Positions 23,985 through 34,624 of a stretch of 64,000 bases of DNA are shown piece after piece. The notes beneath the pieces are model-generated. The model was not told where the DNA came from. It ran no database searches and worked only from the letters and a program-made list of their open reading frames with translations. This stretch comes from Fodinibius sp. Rm-B-1B1-1 (GTDB lineage Bacteria > Bacteroidota > Rhodothermia > Balneolales > Balneolaceae). The stretch lies in assembly GCF_038594945.1 (NCBI RefSeq), contig NZ_JBCFYD010000001.1, positions 930,001 to 994,000 of the forward strand, read 5' to 3'. Each line of letters begins with the position of its first letter. The first letter of the stretch is position 1. Both the position numbers and the translations under genes were made by a program.

Positions 23985-24287
23985 AATATTTTATTAATGC
24001 TTAAAATTTGCTGTTCTAAAATACAGAATTTTGAATAGGGTACAATGTAATTTACAAACTTCAAATGTACTACATTTCAAATAAGAGGGCAGATTAATAG
24101 GTGGTAAGTAAGGATTGTTATAAATAAAGGATCTAATAAGTGGTTAAGTATAGGTGTTCACTTTGGTGGATTAGGATACTAAATTATAACCCTGAAAATA
24201 ATTTAGTAACTATTATTCATTTCGGTCGTCATATAATTGAGTAAGGTTAAGGCATCGAAGTGATTTTGTGTTCATAGGGTATGGTAC
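23985..24287. other. Intergenic region upstream of the ECF sigma operon
   Basis: 303 bases without a gene. The right part contains the ECF-type promoter at 24205-24234; I see nothing else that I can support. Confidence 0.5.
24205..24234 (+). promoter_or_regulatory. Predicted ECF-type promoter of the sigma operon
   Basis: AGTAAC (24205-24210) and CGTC (24227-24230) are separated by 16 bases and followed by ATAT; together with the preceding bases the right half reads CGGTCGTCATAT. AAC-type -35 and CGTC -10 boxes are the hallmarks of ECF sigma promoters. The same element with identical spacing precedes the DUF4382 gene. It lies 54 bases before the sigma-factor ATG, so the sigma factor probably activates its own operon. 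Confidence 0.7.
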
Positions 24288-24860
24288 ATGGATGAGTTTA
24301 AGGAAAAGGAATTTGAAATAATCAGTGACATATTAAATGGGCAGCGCGAACTATATAGAAAACTGGTCGACAAATATGCCCCCATGGTATTTAGTATTGT
24401 TAACAAGTTTGTTGATAGGCAAGATGATAGAGAAGAGTTGGCTCAACAGATTTTTGTAAAAGCCTATGAACGGTTGGACTCATTTAACATGAAATCCAAA
24501 TTTTCTTCGTGGCTTTACCGGTTGGCTCAGAATCATTGTTTGGATTATGCGAAAAACATCCGTCGCTCAAATAAAGAATTTAGTGAGATGGAAACGGGGG
24601 AACTGGAATCTAAAATGAAGGTAGAGGAACAGCCCGATGAGGAGATTGAGTCGCAAGAACAGAAAGTTATGTTAGAACAAGCGCTTGCAACAATTACTCC
24701 CATCTACGCTGAGGCTTTTTTGATGAAATATCGTGACAATATGAGCTATAAGGCAATGGCCAAGCGATTAGATGCAAAGGAAGGGGCTCTAAAAGTGCGT
24801 GTGCACAGAGCCCGGAAGGAATTACAGGGTTATATGAAGGACTATAATATCAGCATATAA
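24288..24860 (+). CDS. ECF-type RNA polymerase sigma factor
   Basis: A 190-residue sigma-70 family protein with only regions 2 and 4. Region 2 (about residues 20-95) contains LVDKYAPMVFSIVNKFVDRQ, the DREELAQQIFVKAYERL helix and the -10-recognising SKFSSWLYRLAQNHCLDYAK. Region 4 (about 130-180) has an HTH reading ITPIYAEAFLMKYRDNMSYK and GALKVRVHRARKEL. It recruits RNA polymerase to a dedicated promoter set. The stop codon overlaps the next gene (TAATG), so it is translationally coupled to the anti-sigma-like protein. A matching promoter lies 54 bases upstream and another copy precedes the DUF4382 lipoprotein gene, suggesting autoregulation plus a second target. Confidence 0.92.
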   Translation: MDEFKEKEFEIISDILNGQRELYRKLVDKYAPMVFSIVNKFVDRQDDREELAQQIFVKAYERLDSFNMKSKFSSWLYRLAQNHCLDYAKNIRRSNKEFSEMETGELESKMKVEEQPDEEIESQEQKVMLEQALATITPIYAEAFLMKYRDNMSYKAMAKRLDAKEGALKVRVHRARKELQGYMKDYNISI

Positions 24861-25570
24861 TGACTATGGATAACGAAAAACTACTACAAAAATATCTGGA
24901 TGGAGAGCTTTCCGGAGAAGAAGAGCGGGAGGCCCTTCATATTATTGCCGAAGATCCCGAAATGCGAGAGCTTATCACATTTGAAAGAAAAATGAGGAGT
25001 GTGGTTAGCAATTGGGATGAGGATGAATCGGTAGCAGTTCCTGAGGGGTTTACTGATCAGGTTATGCACAGTATTGAACAAGCTGATGAATCAGAAAAGA
25101 GTAAAAACAGGTTACGATCATTTAAAAAGTGGCTCCAATCTTGGTGGATTCCCCAGCCGATAACCTGGCGCCCGGTATATGGTGTAGCTATGTTTGTGGT
25201 ACTGGTTTTTGCATTAATAGTACCCATGTATTTGGGTATGCCAATTGAGGATCAGCAAGAAAGTGAGAGGTACGGAGAGTCGATCCAACAAGTATCGCAG
25301 ACAGAAGACCGTGTGTGGGTACGCTTTGTTTATATAGATGAGAATGCCCAATCTGTAGAAGTCGCAGGTGATTTTAACGGGTGGAATCCTATACCGCTTG
25401 ACAAGCAAGAGGTGAACGGCGAAAAAGTTTGGACAGGATTAATTGCCATGAAGCGGGGAGAACATCGCTATATGTTTGTAAAAGATGGTGAACAATGGGT
25501 TACTGATCCAATGGCTCCTGTTCAGCGAGATGATGGTTTTGGGAATAAAAATGCAGTTATCTACTTATGA
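24860..25570 (+). CDS. Anti-sigma-factor-like membrane protein with C-terminal CBM48 domain
   Basis: A 236-residue protein. Residues 1-100 are soluble and acidic, with LQKYLDGELSGEEEREALHI like the start of many anti-sigma factors; the zinc-binding His-Cys-Cys motif is absent. One transmembrane helix lies at about 107-126 (YGVAMFVVLVFALIVPMYLG). The exported part (150-236) is a CBM48/AMPK-beta glycogen-binding-like domain: VEVAGDFNGWNPIPL, an aromatic stretch GEHRYMFVKDGEQWV and the end DDGFGNKNAVIYL. By position (TAATG overlap with sigma) it should hold the sigma factor at the membrane; the CBM48 domain would make it a candidate sensor for a polysaccharide or a structural module. This combination is unusual. 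The next gene overlaps by 4 bases (ATGA). Confidence 0.8.
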   Translation: MTMDNEKLLQKYLDGELSGEEEREALHIIAEDPEMRELITFERKMRSVVSNWDEDESVAVPEGFTDQVMHSIEQADESEKSKNRLRSFKKWLQSWWIPQPITWRPVYGVAMFVVLVFALIVPMYLGMPIEDQQESERYGESIQQVSQTEDRVWVRFVYIDENAQSVEVAGDFNGWNPIPLDKQEVNGEKVWTGLIAMKRGEHRYMFVKDGEQWVTDPMAPVQRDDGFGNKNAVIYL

Positions 25571-26835
25571 GGATAGTTCTTGTTACTGTGATTTTACTAC
25601 TTTCTATATCAAATGAATTGTTAGCTCAGGAGTGGGATACCGTGTTTTCTGTAGACTCTCGATTGGGATATTCTACGAACACTTATTTGAATCCCTACTA
25701 TGGAGAATGGGATCGTTCTCAAAATGTGGGATATGGAGTTCTATCAGGGATTGTACAAACGTCGTGGATCGATGACCAAAATATTCTGGATCTGACAGGC
25801 TTAGCAGTTGTTGAGCCATTATTTGAAGGGAGCGGTACCTGGAAAGGGGGACTTGGTCTTGTGAGCTATCGTCGAAAAATAACGCCATCGTTTAGTGTTG
25901 GGGTTGAAGGAGGCGGAAGCCATTTTAATTCATCTTTTAGTCGCAGTATGGGATGGATTCAACCCAAGTTGGTTTGGTCGGTTACTCCCTTTAGTCAGTT
26001 GAAACTGAAAGCGGGATCCAACTTTCGATCGTATCAAGATTATATGGTTGATAGTGTTTCAACCACGGTTAGTGATCGATCTGAGCTGTATGCCATTGAG
26101 TTTGAGACATGGCCAAGTTTTAACTGGAAGTTTTCGTCAGGCTTATATGGCAATATGGACGCTTTCCCAGCCATCCAAGAGGGATTTAGCTCATTTATTG
26201 CACTTAGTCGGTTATTCCGGGAAGGGGCAAAAATAAGAGTGAAAATGGGGCTTGAACAATATCAGAATGAACAAACGGTAACGACGGGCGGTGGGGGTGG
26301 GTTTCCACCTGTAGGCGGTGGCCCCCAAGAAACGACGGAAACAATACGCGAAACAAATCGAATATTCAAACTGGGTGTAGAAGGTAGTGTGCCTGTAAAT
26401 AAAAGGATAACAGCATTTGTACATGCCCAAGGGCTGCGCTATAACGCTACTACTACCGACCAAAATATTAATGATGTACAGATTTCAGGAGGAATACGAT
26501 TATCGCTGCAGCCGAAATCCCGGAAAAATAAAGGGAAAGCTTCGCCGGATTGGAATTCCAACAGTAACAACAAACAGCAGGTGGAAATTAAATACTCTGG
26601 AGATGGTCGCCTATATGTAGTCGGAGATTTTAATAACTGGAACCGCCCGGGTATACCACTGGTGAATGTAGAAAAGGATTTTTATCGGGCAAGTATAGAA
26701 TTACCGCCGGGCTCGTATGAATATAAAATTCTAAAGATAGAGCAGGGAGAAGAAAACTGGATTGACTTTGCAGAAGGCACGTACACCGTTGACGATGGTT
26801 TTGGCGGGCAAAATGCACTGTTACTGGTTCAATAA
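25567..26835 (+). CDS. Outer-membrane-type protein with C-terminal CBM48 domain
   Basis: A 422-residue protein with a signal peptide (residues 1-20, ending SNELLAQ). Residues about 20-320 are rich in alternating aromatic and polar residues with Gly turns (SVDSRLGYSTNTYLNPYYGE, SVGVEGGGSHFNSSFSRS, LFREGAKIRVKMGLEQYQNE), as in outer-membrane beta-barrels. After a basic, Asn/Ser-rich linker (KSRKNKGKASPDWNSNSNN), residues 339-422 form a CBM48-like domain: LYVVGDFNNWNRPGIPL, PPGSYEYKILK and DDGFGGQNALLLVQ. That domain resembles the one at the end of the preceding anti-sigma-like protein. Glycine-rich loop GGGGGFPPVGGGP lies in the barrel region. Function unknown; a surface or periplasmic role with the same ligand as the anti-sigma partner is inferred. 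Confidence 0.75.
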   Translation: MRIVLVTVILLLSISNELLAQEWDTVFSVDSRLGYSTNTYLNPYYGEWDRSQNVGYGVLSGIVQTSWIDDQNILDLTGLAVVEPLFEGSGTWKGGLGLVSYRRKITPSFSVGVEGGGSHFNSSFSRSMGWIQPKLVWSVTPFSQLKLKAGSNFRSYQDYMVDSVSTTVSDRSELYAIEFETWPSFNWKFSSGLYGNMDAFPAIQEGFSSFIALSRLFREGAKIRVKMGLEQYQNEQTVTTGGGGGFPPVGGGPQETTETIRETNRIFKLGVEGSVPVNKRITAFVHAQGLRYNATTTDQNINDVQISGGIRLSLQPKSRKNKGKASPDWNSNSNNKQQVEIKYSGDGRLYVVGDFNNWNRPGIPLVNVEKDFYRASIELPPGSYEYKILKIEQGEENWIDFAEGTYTVDDGFGGQNALLLVQ

Positions 26836-26845
26836 TAAAAGTGAA

Positions 26846-27772
26846 ATGAATATTATGAAGGATTTTAAACAACATATAAACGTTCTTACAGTTTTGTTAT
26901 TTGTCTGCATTAGTTTGAGTGTCACAGATAGTGCACTTGGGCAAGCCGGTGATTTGAATACCTTGCAGGAGCGAGCGAAAAAGGCTGGTATTGAACAATC
27001 TATCATCGATGATCTCAAGGTTCGTAAAGAATCTCGAGGACTCACGAATGAGCAGTTGATAGCAATTATTGAACCTGCTGTAGCACTTGCAGAGGATAAT
27101 CTACCAGCTAATCATGTCTTGCAAAAAGCACTCGAAGGATTATCAAAAGGAGTGCCCGATGCACAGATTGTGCCTTATATAAATAGTATGGCTAATGCTA
27201 CACGTCAGGCAGCTGGCGTTGTGGATCCTTGGCTGGAAAATCCTGGAGTCAAAAAAATGGTAGAGGCAGAAGACCATCGCGCTGGGCCTAATAGTGTTCG
27301 AAACCGGATGGTAGAATCGTCCTCCAGGGCGATAAATCAAAATATTTCTCCGGATGAAGTTAGCCAGCTGCTATCTGATATAGGAGACAAATCTGTGATG
27401 TCTAAGACTACGCCATCCAATATCATTTCAGCGATGGATATATTGCCGGATTTACCTATGCAGGATCAGCCTCAGCTTACTCGGTCATTTGTTATCCGGG
27501 CTTTGAAGGGCGGTTTCGAGGCGGCAGAATTCCAGAAATTGCCAATGGCCTTAAATATGGCTCAAAAACGAAGTCAAATTCCTGCCGCAAATATTGTTGA
27601 GGGAATAGCAAATCAATTGCAACGTGGAACACCGGCTCAAGATATCTTGCGAAATCTGTTTGATGGAAATATCGGAGGGGGACCGCCAGGAAATATCCCA
27701 AAAGGAATGGAAGATAATCCCGGAAGAGGCAATAATGGTAATAGGGGCACGGGCAACAATGGAACGTTGTGA
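26846..27772 (+). CDS. Secreted helical-repeat protein with Gly/Asn-rich tail, unknown family
   Basis: Start chosen at ATG 26846 (MNIMKDFKQHINVL; ATG 26855 is also possible) because both precede a signal peptide (VLTVLLFVCISLSVTDSALG) and lie 10 bases after the preceding stop, giving 308 residues. The mature part is alpha-helical with recurring units of the type ALEGLSKGVPDAQIVPYI and IANQLQRGTPAQDILRNL, each with a Gly-x-Pro-x-x-x-(I/V) turn, which suggests tandem helical hairpins. The last 35 residues are Gly/Asn/Pro-rich (GGGPPGNIPKGMEDNPGRG), a low-complexity tail. I recognise no characterised family. It is the fourth gene of the sigma/anti-sigma operon and is probably exported under ECF control. 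Confidence 0.75.
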   Translation: MNIMKDFKQHINVLTVLLFVCISLSVTDSALGQAGDLNTLQERAKKAGIEQSIIDDLKVRKESRGLTNEQLIAIIEPAVALAEDNLPANHVLQKALEGLSKGVPDAQIVPYINSMANATRQAAGVVDPWLENPGVKKMVEAEDHRAGPNSVRNRMVESSSRAINQNISPDEVSQLLSDIGDKSVMSKTTPSNIISAMDILPDLPMQDQPQLTRSFVIRALKGGFEAAEFQKLPMALNMAQKRSQIPAANIVEGIANQLQRGTPAQDILRNLFDGNIGGGPPGNIPKGMEDNPGRGNNGNRGTGNNGTL

Positions 27773-27850
27773 TAAATACTCTTCCTATTGTTATTGGCAG
27801 TATGATTTACCCCGTGCATCAAGGGGAATAAAATAAATTTGAAAAAAGTC

Positions 27851-27880
27851 AGTAACCATTCAGCATCTCGGTCGTCATAT
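27851..27880 (+). promoter_or_regulatory. Predicted ECF-type promoter of the DUF4382 gene
   Basis: AGTAAC (27851-27856) and CGTC (27873-27876) with a 16-base spacer and the shared 12-mer CGGTCGTCATAT (27869-27880). The element equals that at 24205-24234 in both boxes, spacing and the ATAT extension. It lies 42 bases before the ATG at 27922, so this gene is a probable second target of the sigma factor. Confidence 0.7.
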
Positions 27881-27921
27881 GTTCTAATTTAACACCAATA
27901 ATAAATCTACAGGTGATTATT

Positions 27922-28787: not shown

Positions 28788-28823
28788 AGTCCGTTGAGTG
28801 AAATCATTTTCACTCAACGGACT
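28788..28823. terminator. Perfect 16-bp hairpin between DUF4382 gene and the pilin-like genes
   Basis: AGTCCGTTGAGTGAAA (28788-28803) pairs perfectly with TTTCACTCAACGGACT (28808-28823) around the 4-base loop TCAT, 51 bases after the lipoprotein stop. It is followed by ATATATTAAAAG rather than a T run, so termination is likely but not certain; it may also act as an mRNA-end structure. Confidence 0.65.
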
Positions 28824-28919: not shown

Positions 28920-29462
28920 ATGATAGGTTACGGTGAAGTTTTCCAGACAATTGGAGCAATGGTGATTTTTTCACTAATTCTGCTCAGTGCCACCAGTATG
29001 ATCCAACGAAATACGTACATGCAGGTGGAGGGTGAATTAGAGGAAGAGGTGATAGCGTTAGCTCAAGATGTGATCGAAGAAGCGCGTACTCAGGAATTTG
29101 ATGAAGTGAGTGTTGAGGCAACTGCCCCACCAGCAGATATTCCCGGAAATTTTGCTACGTCATCTGATTTAGGACCCGAAGCAAATGACGATGAGAATAG
29201 TGATAATGATATTAAACGCCATGAATTTGATGACTTTGATGACTATAACGGATGGGAGGATACTATTACAACTGAGCAGGGCGAATTTAACATCAGGGCC
29301 GAAGTATTTTATGTGGATGAAACTGATTTTGATTCTACGGGTACCCAAACCACGTTTAAAAAATTACGAGTGCATATCACCAGTAAATTTTTGAATAGAA
29401 ATAACTCTGGGAATCCTACCAATTATAAGTTGGAATTTATTCGTAATTATTACGCTGATTAG
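28920..29462 (+). CDS. PilV-like membrane-anchored minor-pilin-like protein
   Basis: A 180-residue protein with one N-terminal transmembrane helix (about residues 8-28, FQTIGAMVIFSLILLSATSM) followed by an amphipathic stretch (IALAQDVIEEARTQEFDEVS) and a beta-rich soluble domain. Size, helix position and the downstream neighbours resemble PilV. The prepilin signature Gly-Phe-Thr-Leu-x-Glu at the cleavage site is absent (MIGYGEVFQTIG instead), so processing by a prepilin peptidase is unlikely or noncanonical. Family assignment is inference from architecture. The 12 bases before the next gene hold its AGGTGAT site. Confidence 0.55.
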   Translation: MIGYGEVFQTIGAMVIFSLILLSATSMIQRNTYMQVEGELEEEVIALAQDVIEEARTQEFDEVSVEATAPPADIPGNFATSSDLGPEANDDENSDNDIKRHEFDDFDDYNGWEDTITTEQGEFNIRAEVFYVDETDFDSTGTQTTFKKLRVHITSKFLNRNNSGNPTNYKLEFIRNYYAD

Positions 29463-29474
29463 CGAGGTGATATT

Positions 29475-30107
29475 ATGAACATGGGATTAATTACCAGTTA
29501 TATTATCGGTGGTATCTTGTTGATTGGGATTCTTGCGCTAAATATGTCCGTCTCACAGAGTTCTACCGCATTAACGTTGACCCAAACAACTCGTGAAAAA
29601 GCCAAGGGGGTCCAGGAGATATTGACCCATGACATTCAAAAAATGGGATATAATAAGGGGGGGAAGACAGCGACTATTTTGGAAGTTGCTGAAAGCGATA
29701 AAATTCAGTTTCAAAGTAATATTGATGATACGGATGCCAATCCCAATAGTGATGTAGAGCGTATAACCTGGGAATTTACAGATACCTCGTTAGATAATGG
29801 CAATCCTAATACGTTTGTGTTGATGCGTACGGTAGAACACCTCGACACTGGTGATATTGAGCAAACGCCCATACGGTTGGGAGTGGCCAATTTTGAAATA
29901 AGATATTTTGATGAATATGGTAAAAAGATAAGCGAATATATGGCCACGCCGTTGTCATCATCAGAAAGGTCTGATGTGCGTCAGCTATATATAAAATTAG
30001 AACTGCAGAGCTCAGGAAAGGTTTATCAAAATACCAGCGGCAATGGAAGGTATGTGCGTACAATATGGGAGAAGCGATTTTCACCGCCAAATTTAGAAAA
30101 CATTTAA
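29475..30107 (+). CDS. PilW-like membrane-anchored minor-pilin-like protein
   Basis: A 210-residue protein with an N-terminal helix (about residues 5-28, LITSYIIGGILLIGILALNM), then TTREKAKGVQEILTHDIQKMGYN, a typical pseudopilin helical extension, and a beta-rich domain. The segment ANFEIRYFDEYGKKISEYMA and the later VRQLYIKLELQSSGK resemble the C-terminal strand pattern of PilW/PulJ proteins. A canonical prepilin cleavage motif is not present. Strong Shine-Dalgarno (GAGGTGAT, 29463-29470 region) precedes ATG 29475. It sits between the PilV-like and PilX-like genes, the order found in type IV pilus minor-pilin operons. Assignment by architecture only. Confidence 0.55.
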   Translation: MNMGLITSYIIGGILLIGILALNMSVSQSSTALTLTQTTREKAKGVQEILTHDIQKMGYNKGGKTATILEVAESDKIQFQSNIDDTDANPNSDVERITWEFTDTSLDNGNPNTFVLMRTVEHLDTGDIEQTPIRLGVANFEIRYFDEYGKKISEYMATPLSSSERSDVRQLYIKLELQSSGKVYQNTSGNGRYVRTIWEKRFSPPNLENI

Positions 30108-30125
30108 TTCATAAAAGGTATTGTT

Positions 30126-31265
30126 ATGGGTAGAGCAATGTTAATTATTTGTGCCGGGCTGTTGGTTTCGTTCGGAATTGTAGCAATAGGAACATCAGGA
30201 CAGGGTAAACTTTTGACCCAAAAAACGGTTGAGTATGCCCAAAAAACGCAAGCGCTAAATGCATCACATACTGCTATTCAAATAGTTATGCAGGAAATTA
30301 ATGACAAGGGCATCGAAAATATGGACCAGCAGTATGTGGATGATAAAAATAGTAACAATTCGTGGACATCATCCAAGGTCAATGATGCAGATATTGTGTT
30401 TTCAATAGAGTTTTTGAATAGCGACTGGGAAACTAATCCCTATTTCGAAGAGGATAGAGTGCGCTTGGTTTCCCAGGCTACTTATGATGACAAGTATCAG
30501 GCCAACGTAGAAAGTGTGTACGAAGTAGCGCCCTTTAGTAACTTGGTGCCAAAGTTTAAATCATCGCTTTCTATTGCTACGGATAACTTTACAATTAGCA
30601 CTGATGGAAGTGCCAGTTTAAGTGGGAATTCGCCATCGGCTTGTGAGGATGGTGATCAGAGTAAGCCAGCTATTTCAGTGCTGAATGAAAACCTGGAAGA
30701 TAATGTCCAATCAGAAACGAATGATATTGATATAGAAGGTGATCCCAAGGTGGCTACAGACAATGATTTATCATATGAGCCAACGGATGAACTTATTGAA
30801 AGATTAGCAAATACAGATGGTGTGCAAAAACTATCTGGCAATACAGATGATACGCTTGGCACCGCAGATAATCCTGGAGTATTTTTTGTAGAAGATGGTA
30901 CTCTGAAACTTACTGGTAAGCAAAAGGAAGGCTATGGGATTTTGGTAATACGAGATAATGGGAATATGGAATACGAGGGGGACGATGGGGCAACACTGGA
31001 AGTTGCCGGTAATTTTGAATGGAATGGACTTGTTGTTTTTGAAAATGCGTACAATTTCGATGGAAATGGAACGCCAACAATTAATGGTTCGGTATTGGTA
31101 GGTCATACTGATAGTGACGATACTATTAATATAGATTTAAATGGGAATATTCATATGCAGTATGATTGTCAAGCAGAGACTTATGCAAAGATGGCAGCGG
31201 CAGGTGCTGTTAAGCAGAATAAGTATACCCGTGTGGTTACTCTTGAGGAAACATCAATGAAGTAA
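30126..31265 (+). CDS. PilX-like protein with DUF7305-like beta-helical C-terminus
   Basis: A 379-residue protein. The N-terminal helix (about residues 3-22, RAMLIICAGLLVSFGIVAIG) continues into QKTVEYAQKTQALNASHTAIQIVMQEIND, the layout of PilX-type pilus-assembly proteins, in which a membrane anchor is followed by an amphipathic helix. The last 130 residues carry GYGILVIRDNGNMEYEGD, EVAGNFEWNGLVVFENAYNF and TPTINGSVLVG, which repeat hydrophobic-Gly-Asn strands as in DUF7305-like domains at the end of PilX-type proteins. No prepilin motif. AAAGG precedes the ATG. Third gene of the set; 20 bases after it lies the convergent kinase. Confidence 0.6.
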   Translation: MGRAMLIICAGLLVSFGIVAIGTSGQGKLLTQKTVEYAQKTQALNASHTAIQIVMQEINDKGIENMDQQYVDDKNSNNSWTSSKVNDADIVFSIEFLNSDWETNPYFEEDRVRLVSQATYDDKYQANVESVYEVAPFSNLVPKFKSSLSIATDNFTISTDGSASLSGNSPSACEDGDQSKPAISVLNENLEDNVQSETNDIDIEGDPKVATDNDLSYEPTDELIERLANTDGVQKLSGNTDDTLGTADNPGVFFVEDGTLKLTGKQKEGYGILVIRDNGNMEYEGDDGATLEVAGNFEWNGLVVFENAYNFDGNGTPTINGSVLVGHTDSDDTINIDLNGNIHMQYDCQAETYAKMAAAGAVKQNKYTRVVTLEETSMK

Positions 31266-31285: not shown

Positions 31286-34200
31286 TTACATTAAATGGGA
31301 GCTACCAATACCTTTGGGCTCAGATTTTTGAAAGGACAGGCTGAACTTTGTACCATTACTCAGAGAATTATAAGCGTAGTCTGCATCTAACTGTTGAGCA
31401 AGGGTATCAATCAATTTAAGTCCTAAGGTTTTATTTGTCATCATTGTATTAAAATTAGATGGCAATCCTTTCCCATTATCTTTTACTGTTACTATAACTT
31501 CTTGGCTTTTTTCACGGACAGAGACCGTCATTTTACCATCATCTCCTTCCTCAAAAGCATGTTTTAAGATATTGGTAATAACCTCGTTAATAATTAAAGA
31601 GCAAGGGATGGCTTGATTAATATTCAGGTCAACAGATTGCAGGTTATAATCTACCGTAAGGTCGAAATCCGTTTGGAATGTGTTAGATATTTCACTGACC
31701 AATTTTTGAATATTTTCATCAAAGTTAAGCCTTGAAAAGCTTTCTGACTGATATAATAGTTCATGAATAGAGCCCATGGTTTGAATACGGGCAACGCTAT
31801 CGAATAATTGTTCGCTAAATTTTTTATTTTCTGTCTCGTATGCTTGGAGCTGTATCATGCCCGAAATAACTGCTAAATTGTTTTTAACACGGTGGTGAAT
31901 TTCAAGCAGCAAGGTTTCTTTTTCTTTGAGCGATTCACGAAGTTCATTTTCATGTTTCTTTTGCTCAGTTATATCCCTGCCCACACAGACCCAATAGTGT
32001 GTTTGGTTTGGTCCCTTTACGGGAGTCATTGAAATTCGAACCCAGAACTCTTCACCACTTTTTTTGTAGTTAATCAATTCTGCTTCGTAAGACTCCCAAC
32101 GGTCCATATGTTGTACCAGTTTGTTTTGTTCCTCTGTGCTTGTTTTAGGACCAGTTAATATTTTGAGTGTTTTTCCCTTTGCTTGGTCTTTGGGATAGCC
32201 AGTCATATTTGCAAAAGCATCGTTTACATACAGAATTTCACGGCCTGGCAAGTCACTTGGTTGTGCCTCAAGAATGGCAATTGATTCTTTTGTGCTGGCA
32301 ACAGCTGATTCAAACAATTGAAGCCATTTTTGCTCTTCACGTTGCTGGGTTACATCCTGCATGGCCCCGATAACTCGAATAGCATTATTATTTTTATCTG
32401 AGACAACAAATGCACGGTCGTAAATATGTTTATACGTTCCATCGGCTGCTTCAAAGCGGTATTTTAACTGAAGACGTTCGGTGCCATTTTCAATAGCTTT
32501 CTCAAGAGTATCTAATACCTGTTGGCGATCATCAGGATGCAATTTATCACGCCACCATTGCCCAATTTCTTCCACCTCTTGTTTTTCGTAGCCAAACATG
32601 GCATAAATATTCTGATTGTATTCAATGGTGTCTTTGTCAAGGTCCAAGTCCCAGATTGTGTCGCTGGTAGCTTTTGAAACAATTTCGTACCGTTCTACAC
32701 TTTCACTAAGTTCACGCTGACGTTCAATTTGTTCGGTAACATCTTTTTGTATGGCAATAAATCCATCGCAATCACCATTGTTATCAAAAATGGGGTCAAG
32801 CGTTAGGTCAAACCAATATTTATCACCCGTTTTGGAATAATTGAGAACGACTTCTTGTAGTGGTTTTTTGTTTTTAAATGCCTTAGAAATACGGCTTAGG
32901 GTTTGCTCCTGGTTCTCTGGCCCTGTAAGAATATTTCCTGGTGATTTACCAATAACTTCATCAAAATGATAACCGGTCATTTTTTCAAAGGCATCGTTCA
33001 CCCAAGTTATTCGTTCATTGGGATCTGTCATAAAGATGACATCTGTAGTTTTTGAGGCTACTAAAGCTAACTCCTCCAGTTTCTCTTCATATTTTTTCCG
33101 CTCCGTAATATCCTGAAGTGATCCAATCATACGAATAGCATTACCACTATGATCTCGGATAACAAATCCACGTTCAAAAACCGTGGCATACGAGCCGTCA
33201 TTTTTTTTGAACCGGTACTCCTGTTCCCATTTCGATCGATCAGAGCTTAAAAAATTGTTTAAGCTTTCCTGTGTTTTTTGAAGGTCATCGGGATGGACAT
33301 GATCTGCCCAGTCTTTGATCGAATAGGCATCTTCATTGATGTCTAAGATAAATTTTTCGTGGAAGCTGTCGTCCCATTCAAAAGTATCTTTTTTAATATC
33401 CCAGTCATAAACGACATCATCAGTAGCCTTGGTCACATATTCATACAGCTCAAGGCTGTCCTGTAACTTCTGTTTTCGTTCAATTTTTTCCGTAACATCA
33501 CGAGAGTTGGCCACAAATCCTTCTACCGCGGGATTATCGAACATACTTGTGTAGGTTGTCTCTACCCAGCGCCACTCCCCGTCAGCATTTTTAAACCGGT
33601 AGGGGGCAACTTCAACGCGATCATTTTTATCAAGATTTTTAACATGTTCTTGTATACGTGCCCTGTCATCTGGATGGACAAACTGGTAGGCGTTTACTCC
33701 AATATAGTCTTCGGGATGCATACCTAAGACATTTACATAGGTTTGCGATAAGTAAGTAAAGTTTGCCTCTCGATCAAGGATGGCAATGAGGTCACCTCCA
33801 TTTTGGACCAGAGACTTAAACCGTTGTTCGCTGAGGGCAAGCTGCCTTTCTGTTTTAAGACGATCTGTCACATCATCAGCAACAACTATTCGGGCTTCTT
33901 GACCCTTAAAAGTTATAAAAGTGCTTTTAATGTTTACTTTAATTCGGGCGCCATTTTTTTTCTGATGAGTGTGTACGCCACTTTCAAAAATACCTTTGGT
34001 TTGTAGTGACTTTTCAAGCGTTTCTTCTAAGTCAGGAATTTCTTCTTTGGGGCGTATATCCCTGATAGTCATTGATAAAAATTCTTTTCGGCTATATCCA
34101 TAATGATCAATAGCCCGCCGGTTGACATCCAAAATATTGAGTGTCTTAATATCGTATACGAATTTAGGTTGAGGGCTTAACTCAAAAAGATCGCGATATT

Positions 34201-34624
34201 GTTTTTCAGATTCCCGAAGTGATTTATTAATACGATTTCGTTCAATGCTATACGAAATGCTTTTTGAGAGCAGAAAAGAATTCAGTTCATCTTTAAGGAG
34301 GTAATCGGCGACCCCCATACTTAATGTTTTTAAACTAAACTCCTTATTCTCGTATCCAGTTAAAACGATAACGGGTATATCGCCTGAAAGGCTAACAATA
34401 TCACGTACCAGCGTTTCACCACTTGCATCCGGCAGGGTAAGATCAAGCAGAATAATATCATAGGAGGTGTCATTTTGGATAGATTCTTTAGCCTCAGCAA
34501 AGGTAGAGACACGATCAATTTCAGTACCCGATGATTCTTCCATCAGGTATTCCTGGATAAGGACAAAATCCCCTTTGTTATCCTCAATGACTAAGATTTT
34601 AGTACCTTTATCCAATGGAGCCAT
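31286..34624 (-). CDS. Hybrid sensor histidine kinase, REC-PAS(6)-HisKA_2-HATPase
   Basis: A 1112-residue cytoplasmic protein without membrane segments. Residues 1-130 form a receiver (TKILVIEDNKGDFVLIQEYL, phospho-Asp in IILLDLTLPDASG). Six PAS/PAC units follow, each closed by a signature such as DVTDRLKTERQ, DVTEKIERKQ, DITERKKYEEK, DVTEQIERQR, DVTQQREEQ and DITEQKKHENEL. The kinase core is of HisKA_2/HWE type: LLEIHHRVKNNLAVISGMIQ, with an HATPase domain containing NEVITNILKHAF and DNGKGLPSNF. It should sense several ligands or redox/light cues and pass phosphate to a partner; the single-domain regulator gene lies 12 bases upstream on the same strand. Signals unknown. Confidence 0.92.
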   Translation of the reverse strand: MAPLDKGTKILVIEDNKGDFVLIQEYLMEESSGTEIDRVSTFAEAKESIQNDTSYDIILLDLTLPDASGETLVRDIVSLSGDIPVIVLTGYENKEFSLKTLSMGVADYLLKDELNSFLLSKSISYSIERNRINKSLRESEKQYRDLFELSPQPKFVYDIKTLNILDVNRRAIDHYGYSRKEFLSMTIRDIRPKEEIPDLEETLEKSLQTKGIFESGVHTHQKKNGARIKVNIKSTFITFKGQEARIVVADDVTDRLKTERQLALSEQRFKSLVQNGGDLIAILDREANFTYLSQTYVNVLGMHPEDYIGVNAYQFVHPDDRARIQEHVKNLDKNDRVEVAPYRFKNADGEWRWVETTYTSMFDNPAVEGFVANSRDVTEKIERKQKLQDSLELYEYVTKATDDVVYDWDIKKDTFEWDDSFHEKFILDINEDAYSIKDWADHVHPDDLQKTQESLNNFLSSDRSKWEQEYRFKKNDGSYATVFERGFVIRDHSGNAIRMIGSLQDITERKKYEEKLEELALVASKTTDVIFMTDPNERITWVNDAFEKMTGYHFDEVIGKSPGNILTGPENQEQTLSRISKAFKNKKPLQEVVLNYSKTGDKYWFDLTLDPIFDNNGDCDGFIAIQKDVTEQIERQRELSESVERYEIVSKATSDTIWDLDLDKDTIEYNQNIYAMFGYEKQEVEEIGQWWRDKLHPDDRQQVLDTLEKAIENGTERLQLKYRFEAADGTYKHIYDRAFVVSDKNNNAIRVIGAMQDVTQQREEQKWLQLFESAVASTKESIAILEAQPSDLPGREILYVNDAFANMTGYPKDQAKGKTLKILTGPKTSTEEQNKLVQHMDRWESYEAELINYKKSGEEFWVRISMTPVKGPNQTHYWVCVGRDITEQKKHENELRESLKEKETLLLEIHHRVKNNLAVISGMIQLQAYETENKKFSEQLFDSVARIQTMGSIHELLYQSESFSRLNFDENIQKLVSEISNTFQTDFDLTVDYNLQSVDLNINQAIPCSLIINEVITNILKHAFEEGDDGKMTVSVREKSQEVIVTVKDNGKGLPSNFNTMMTNKTLGLKLIDTLAQQLDADYAYNSLSNGTKFSLSFQKSEPKGIGSSHLM

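Follow-up and report, generated by a model that had tools for sequence, protein, structure and literature searches.

A predicted two-promoter ECF sigma factor regulon with CBM48-type domains in Fodinibius and other Balneolales

The window (G000:C1:930001-994000), a 64,000-nucleotide stretch of the 3.41-Mb genome of a salt-lake bacterium of the Fodinibius group, contains a locus that we interpret, with a probability of nearly nine in ten, as a two-promoter ECF regulon, whose sigma factor would read both a promoter before its own operon (P1) and a second one before a DUF4382 lipoprotein gene (P2). An earlier note on the same DNA had proposed that the sigma factor drives its own operon and the DUF4382 gene. 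This proposal is supported by comparative evidence: by phylogenetic footprints, by the co-occurrence of the promoter motif with the sigma factor across genomes, by motif copies at unlinked DUF4382 genes and by a change of the -10 element in a sister lineage. We infer that the encoded sigma factor reads both promoters and is autoregulated, autoregulation being usual among ECF factors (PMC8103513); such a loop is of a known kind.

Organization of the locus and its promoter-like sites

The gene order given in Table 1, from the sigma factor gene to the DUF4382 gene, is retained in most of the loci of 25 relatives; close relatives of this genome bear the names Fodinibius/Aliifodinibius, of the family Balneolaceae. 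Pfam matches of the sigma factor are confined to Sigma70_r2 (residues 26-92) and Sigma70_r4_2 (128-179), joined by a linker of 35 residues. A linker of <50 residues, AAC/CGT boxes and autoregulation are ECF hallmarks, which the box type of P1 and its placement before the sigma factor's own gene also match (PMC8103513). The start codon of the anti-sigma gene overlaps the sigma stop codon, synteny of the pair is conserved across relatives, and this co-encoded protein, in keeping with a further ECF criterion, is predicted to be the cognate partner. By eye it has one TM segment near residues 105-126, and its match to the NCBIfam anti-sigma profile is weak (24.7 bits, cut-off 100).

The model of the outer-membrane protein (pLDDT 79) has 14 long strands and recovered OmpG-, CymA- and FadL-like barrels with low TM-scores in a fold search. 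The orf4 product has an unstructured tail rich in Gly, Pro and Asn; it matches no Pfam family, and a fold search gave no match to a solved fold. The lipoprotein matches the DUF4382 profile (PF14321) at 127 bits (cut-off 25), and a search by sequence found no solved relative. The hairpin downstream of it is probably the terminator that closes the unit. As the interval from orf4 to P2 yielded no terminator, the DUF4382 gene may also be transcribed from P1.

Table 1. Features of the locus, in coordinates of the window
Feature	Position	Strand	Remarks
P1, predicted ECF promoter	24205..24234	+	AGTAAC-N16-CGTCATAT; orthologous promoters aligned
CGTC of P1	24227-24230		
Predicted transcript start from P1	about 24238		
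ECF sigma factor, 190 aa	24288..24860	+	sigma2 and sigma4 only
Membrane anti-sigma factor, 236 aa	24860..25570	+	N-terminal anti-sigma-like part, TM, C-terminal CBM48/AMPK1_CBM
Predicted outer-membrane beta-barrel, 422 aa	25567..26835	+	C-terminal CBM48-like domain
orf4, secreted all-helical repeat protein	26849..27772	+	conserved; model pLDDT 85
P2, predicted ECF promoter	27851..27880	+	AGTAAC-N16-CGTCATAT; linked DUF4382 promoters aligned
CGTC of P2	27873-27876		
Predicted transcript start from P2	about 27884		
Shine-Dalgarno-like AGGTGA	27911-27916	+	before DUF4382
DUF4382 lipoprotein, 271 aa	27922..28737	+	C-terminal CarboxypepD_reg-like stretch
Strong hairpin, 16 pairs	28788..28823	+	3' of DUF4382

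P1 (AGTAAC TATTATTCATTTCGGT CGTCATAT) and P2 (AGTAAC CATTCAGCATCTCGGT CGTCATAT) lie, on the plus strand, exactly where the earlier note had placed its two AGTAAC-N16 sites, and the equal 16-nt spacing and common 12-mer CGGTCGTCATAT that it described were both recovered. Its description of the promoters as identical holds for boxes and spacing, whereas the spacers themselves differ, leaving 25 of 30 bases matching. In P1 we predict GTAAC as the -35 box and TCGTC as the -10 core; the end of P1 is 53 nt from the ATG of the sigma factor, and that of P2 is 41 nt from the ATG of the lipoprotein. P1 and P2 are the only exact matches to AGTAAC-N16-CGTC in the window, and they are also the only two sites in the whole genome for the refined motif GTAAC-N15-TCGTC-N-H-A-Y. 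The shorter GTAAC-N16-CGTC has 8 matches in the genome against 36 for a reversed-pattern control; with one mismatch allowed there were 11 further sites, compared with 39 for the control. Apart from P1 and P2, the GTAAC-N16-CGTC sites lie inside genes and were for this reason rejected as promoters, as were all but one of the one-mismatch sites, which are likewise inside genes.

Co-occurrence of the motif with the sigma factor

A genome-wide scan for the motif, run on 92 genomes of the family with the refined pattern GTAAC-N15-TCGTC-N-H-A-Y (strict sites), showed that these sites follow the sigma factor ortholog, which was called with a profile independently of the motif. Full-length orthologs scored 262-313 bits and truncated ones 207 and 141, and the next ECF factor scored 135; on these scores the orthologs are a class apart within the family. 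The sigma-plus set includes the truncated copies (G048, G042) and a genome (G044) in which the contig starts within the anti-sigma gene. The 28 sigma-plus genomes (99.5 Mb) contain 95 strict sites versus 23 in the 64 sigma-minus genomes (204 Mb; p=2e-26), an 8 times higher density, and the reversed control pattern occurs 40 and 69 times, respectively (p=0.41; totals summed by hand). Since the motif had been derived from the operon loci, these were left out of a second comparison, in which 44 unlinked sites of sigma-plus genomes still stand against the 23 of sigma-minus genomes (p=5e-8). Thirteen of the 44 are upstream of unlinked DUF4382 genes, the chance expectation over all DUF4382 genes being about 0.003. 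Among the sigma-minus genomes, the fragmentary assemblies G073 and G077 have DUF4382 genes bearing the motif and a third, G049, has five motif sites; the sigma gene is likely to be missing from these assemblies.

These data bear on the possibility that P1 and P2, though ECF promoters, belong to some other ECF factor of the cell, which would have the linked sigma gene as just one more target. Such sharing is conceivable because the motif differs little from the general ECF consensus, AAC/CGT boxes being common to ECF promoters (PMC8103513), and this genome encodes four further proteins matching the sigma profile at E<1e-20; moreover, genera without this sigma factor have a related motif, ending CTCGTCTAAC, upstream of another gene. 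We nevertheless consider this improbable, as the motif tracks this ortholog alone although ECF proteins matching the profile occur in 91 of the 92 genomes, and the related motif differs both in its -10 end (TAAC rather than ATAY) and in its target. In four genomes without this sigma factor (G001, G002, G091 and G035; loci L175, L176, L177 and L180), the gene for a secreted protein of ~900-940 aa has a similar site, in most cases with the ending TCGTCTAAC, about 80-113 nt upstream, which probably serves another ECF factor as its promoter.

Conservation of P1 and P2 and extent of the regulon

Upstream regions of 250 nt were compared among 25 related loci and the present one. All 25 genomes with the region upstream of the sigma gene have GTAAC-N16-CGTC there, within 250 nt in 24 of 25 and 366 nt before the sigma match in the remaining one; the motif also precedes the linked DUF4382 gene in 23/23. 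Corresponding regions of the anti-sigma (0/25) and barrel (0/26) genes lack it, and it was found before orf4 in 2/25. The expectation from dinucleotide shuffling is at most 0.015 per upstream set. GTAAC and TCGTC are invariant in all 24 aligned orthologous sigma promoters, the spacer being variable, and the same two blocks are invariant in the 23 linked DUF4382 promoters. Column information reaches 2.0 bits at GTAAC, TCGTC and the A three bases after TCGTC, whereas most spacer columns fall to 0.1-1.0 bits. Conservation is confined to GTAAC, TCGTC-N-(T)-A and, in part, an A-tract 4-9 nt 5' of GTAAC.

In genomes at 43-65% anti-sigma identity the motif keeps these positions. GTAAC-N16/17-CGTC is also present before the sigma gene, and mostly before DUF4382 too, in other Balneolales and in a single MAG with the label Rhodothermaceae. 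In these sister-lineage sites the base before CGTC is mostly G, not T ([G]CGTC), and the corresponding stretch of sigma factor region 2.4 has forms such as DESRRAKH in place of DYAKNIRR; the two changes are correlated, though probably through one event only. Nitrospirota and Eisenbacteria MAGs encode a distant pair of sigma factor and CBM48 anti-sigma factor, again with GTAAC-N16/17-CGTC upstream of the sigma gene. Three Nitrospirota MAGs (L286, L287, L288) encode another protein with a CBM48-like match immediately 5' of the sigma gene, thus placing CBM48 proteins on both sides of it, and two of the three have strict GTAAC-N15-TCGTC sites ~1 kb upstream.

In the three closest relatives (G019, G018, G013; L069-L071) a kinase-like gene lies just upstream of the sigma operon; it is related to the C-terminal part of window positions 31286-34624, and is absent from that place in this genome. 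In G042 (L142:1760-2419) the first ~87 sigma codons are in frame with the C-terminal half of DUF4382, with the motif intact before them; this looks like an internal deletion of ~4 kb that joined both ends of the locus, unless it is an artefact of assembly.

A tree of DUF4382 proteins has two clades, and the motif was scored for 38 of 39 rows of one and none of 30 of the other; in the sole exception (L091) the site is present but falls within an ORF that was called too long. The putative promoter has travelled with one DUF4382 subfamily through duplication and relocation: G018, for instance, has an operon without DUF4382 and two DUF4382 copies elsewhere that still have the motif. The second DUF4382 copy of the present genome (G000:C2:86748, L190) belongs to the motif-less clade and was rejected as a target, its best upstream match having 4/11 mismatches.

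One could also read DUF4382 as the fifth gene of a single operon transcribed from P1, with a dispensable match at P2. The conserved gene order and the lack of a detected terminator between orf4 and P2 would suit this, but P2 is conserved to the same degree as P1, and the 13 unlinked DUF4382 copies, two of them in G018, retain the P2 motif, which makes a dispensable P2 very improbable. That the pair is a chance match, or unconstrained sequence common to close relatives, is scarcely credible: GTAAC-N16-CGTC alone is indeed rarer than its reversed control in this genome, but the two five-base blocks stayed invariant while spacers and flanks diverged, and their placement persists across divergent anti-sigma factors and into the sister lineage, far beyond the shuffle expectation.

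The earlier note had further called the regulon self-contained, and for this genome, with its two sites, the term stands; it does not extend to some relatives, which have 9-12 sites. In G034, G058 and G069 the motif variously precedes genes for response regulators, a PAS histidine kinase, orf4-like proteins, TIG-domain and other lipoproteins and pilin-like proteins, the latter homologous to products of window positions 28920-31265. The three proteins encoded in this segment, 3' of DUF4382, are pilin-like or small and secreted and belong to no Pfam family; a motif was not seen upstream of their genes in this genome, and their homologs in G034, G049 and G058, located elsewhere, have their own motif copies. 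Genes for single-domain response regulators and for a PAS/HisKA_2 kinase follow the motif at L149, L153, L154 and L140 (G058, G034), which suggests that in relatives with large regulons the sigma factor is tied to two-component signaling. An MbnP-like lipoprotein is a motif target in G010/G011/G018; its distant relative in this genome has no motif.

Relation to known systems and a possible glycan-linked signal

In its sigma2-sigma4 architecture with a short linker, its overlapping anti-sigma gene with a TM segment, its AAC/CGT boxes and its predicted autoregulated promoter and envelope targets, the system resembles group IV ECF modules of the SigW and RpoE-RseA type. Unlike in these, the anti-sigma factor has a CBM48/AMPK-type carbohydrate-binding domain as its predicted periplasmic part, and the operon encodes a predicted outer-membrane barrel with a second CBM domain. 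An outer-membrane barrel, a periplasmic anti-sigma part and an ECF factor are also, in outline, the components of FecI/FecR/FecA. Membership in this type was rejected, as Pfam gives only AMPK1_CBM/CBM_48 on the barrel and the anti-sigma factor, with no FecR or TonB-dependent receptor domain reported in either. Furthermore, TonB-dependent receptors have 22 strands, and the predicted barrel has 14 long ones. The operon also carries its own promoter motif, unlike those of FecI-type factors, which are listed exceptions to autoregulation (PMC8103513). In strand number and barrel size the protein resembles the monomeric 14-strand porins CymA and OmpG (target-normalized TM 0.53-0.60), from which it differs in that sequence identity is 8-10% and in the additional C-terminal CBM domain.

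The AMPK1_CBM/CBM_48 match of the anti-sigma factor scores 38.8 bits (cut-off 26.8), and that of the barrel 26.4 bits, just below the same cut-off. The anti-sigma C-terminus is the best-conserved part of that protein, with an invariant DGFGNKNA and conserved Trp and Asn positions. It matches in sequence (E=2e-7) the CBM48 of the AMPK beta-subunit, a glycogen-binding domain (4yef, 1z0m), two Trp of which align with W175 and W213, invariant in the anti-sigma family; the differences are the predicted periplasmic anti-sigma setting and a Met in place of the AMPK Lys in H-x-Y-K/M-F. The paired CBM domains suggest glycan- or envelope-sensing control. Given how well the anti-sigma C-terminus is conserved, and that a related domain forms the end of the barrel protein, a common glycan ligand or direct contact is plausible. 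More tentatively, and with the odds somewhat against it, the two domains may form a trans-envelope switch that recognizes one common (poly)saccharide, or in which they recognize one another, thereby releasing the sigma factor for the DUF4382 clade.

Based on these observations we propose that the sigma factor would be held by the membrane anti-sigma factor, with its predicted carbohydrate-binding domain in the periplasm, until the latter lets go, probably upon an envelope or glycan signal that, speculatively, involves the outer-membrane barrel. Once free, the sigma factor would guide RNA polymerase to both promoters: at P1 it would boost the operon that encodes it, a positive feedback loop, and at P2 it would provide the DUF4382 lipoprotein with additional or independent expression. 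The arrangement of CBM48 sensors and the link to a DUF4382 clade appear to be undescribed in the literature searched, where no paper was found on CBM48 or AMPK1_CBM with ECF/anti-sigma or sigma factors, or on DUF4382 together with a sigma factor.

Our analysis identifies a predicted ECF/anti-sigma family with a carbohydrate-binding sensor domain, conserved across Balneolales and with more distant relatives in other phyla. GTAAC-N16-CGTC would serve as a defined promoter with which regulons can be read out in unannotated genomes. For DUF4382 lipoproteins, which are known from both archaea and bacteria but hardly figure in the literature, where the search yielded one table row in one paper, the analysis supplies a predicted regulator and with it a condition under which they may be assayed.
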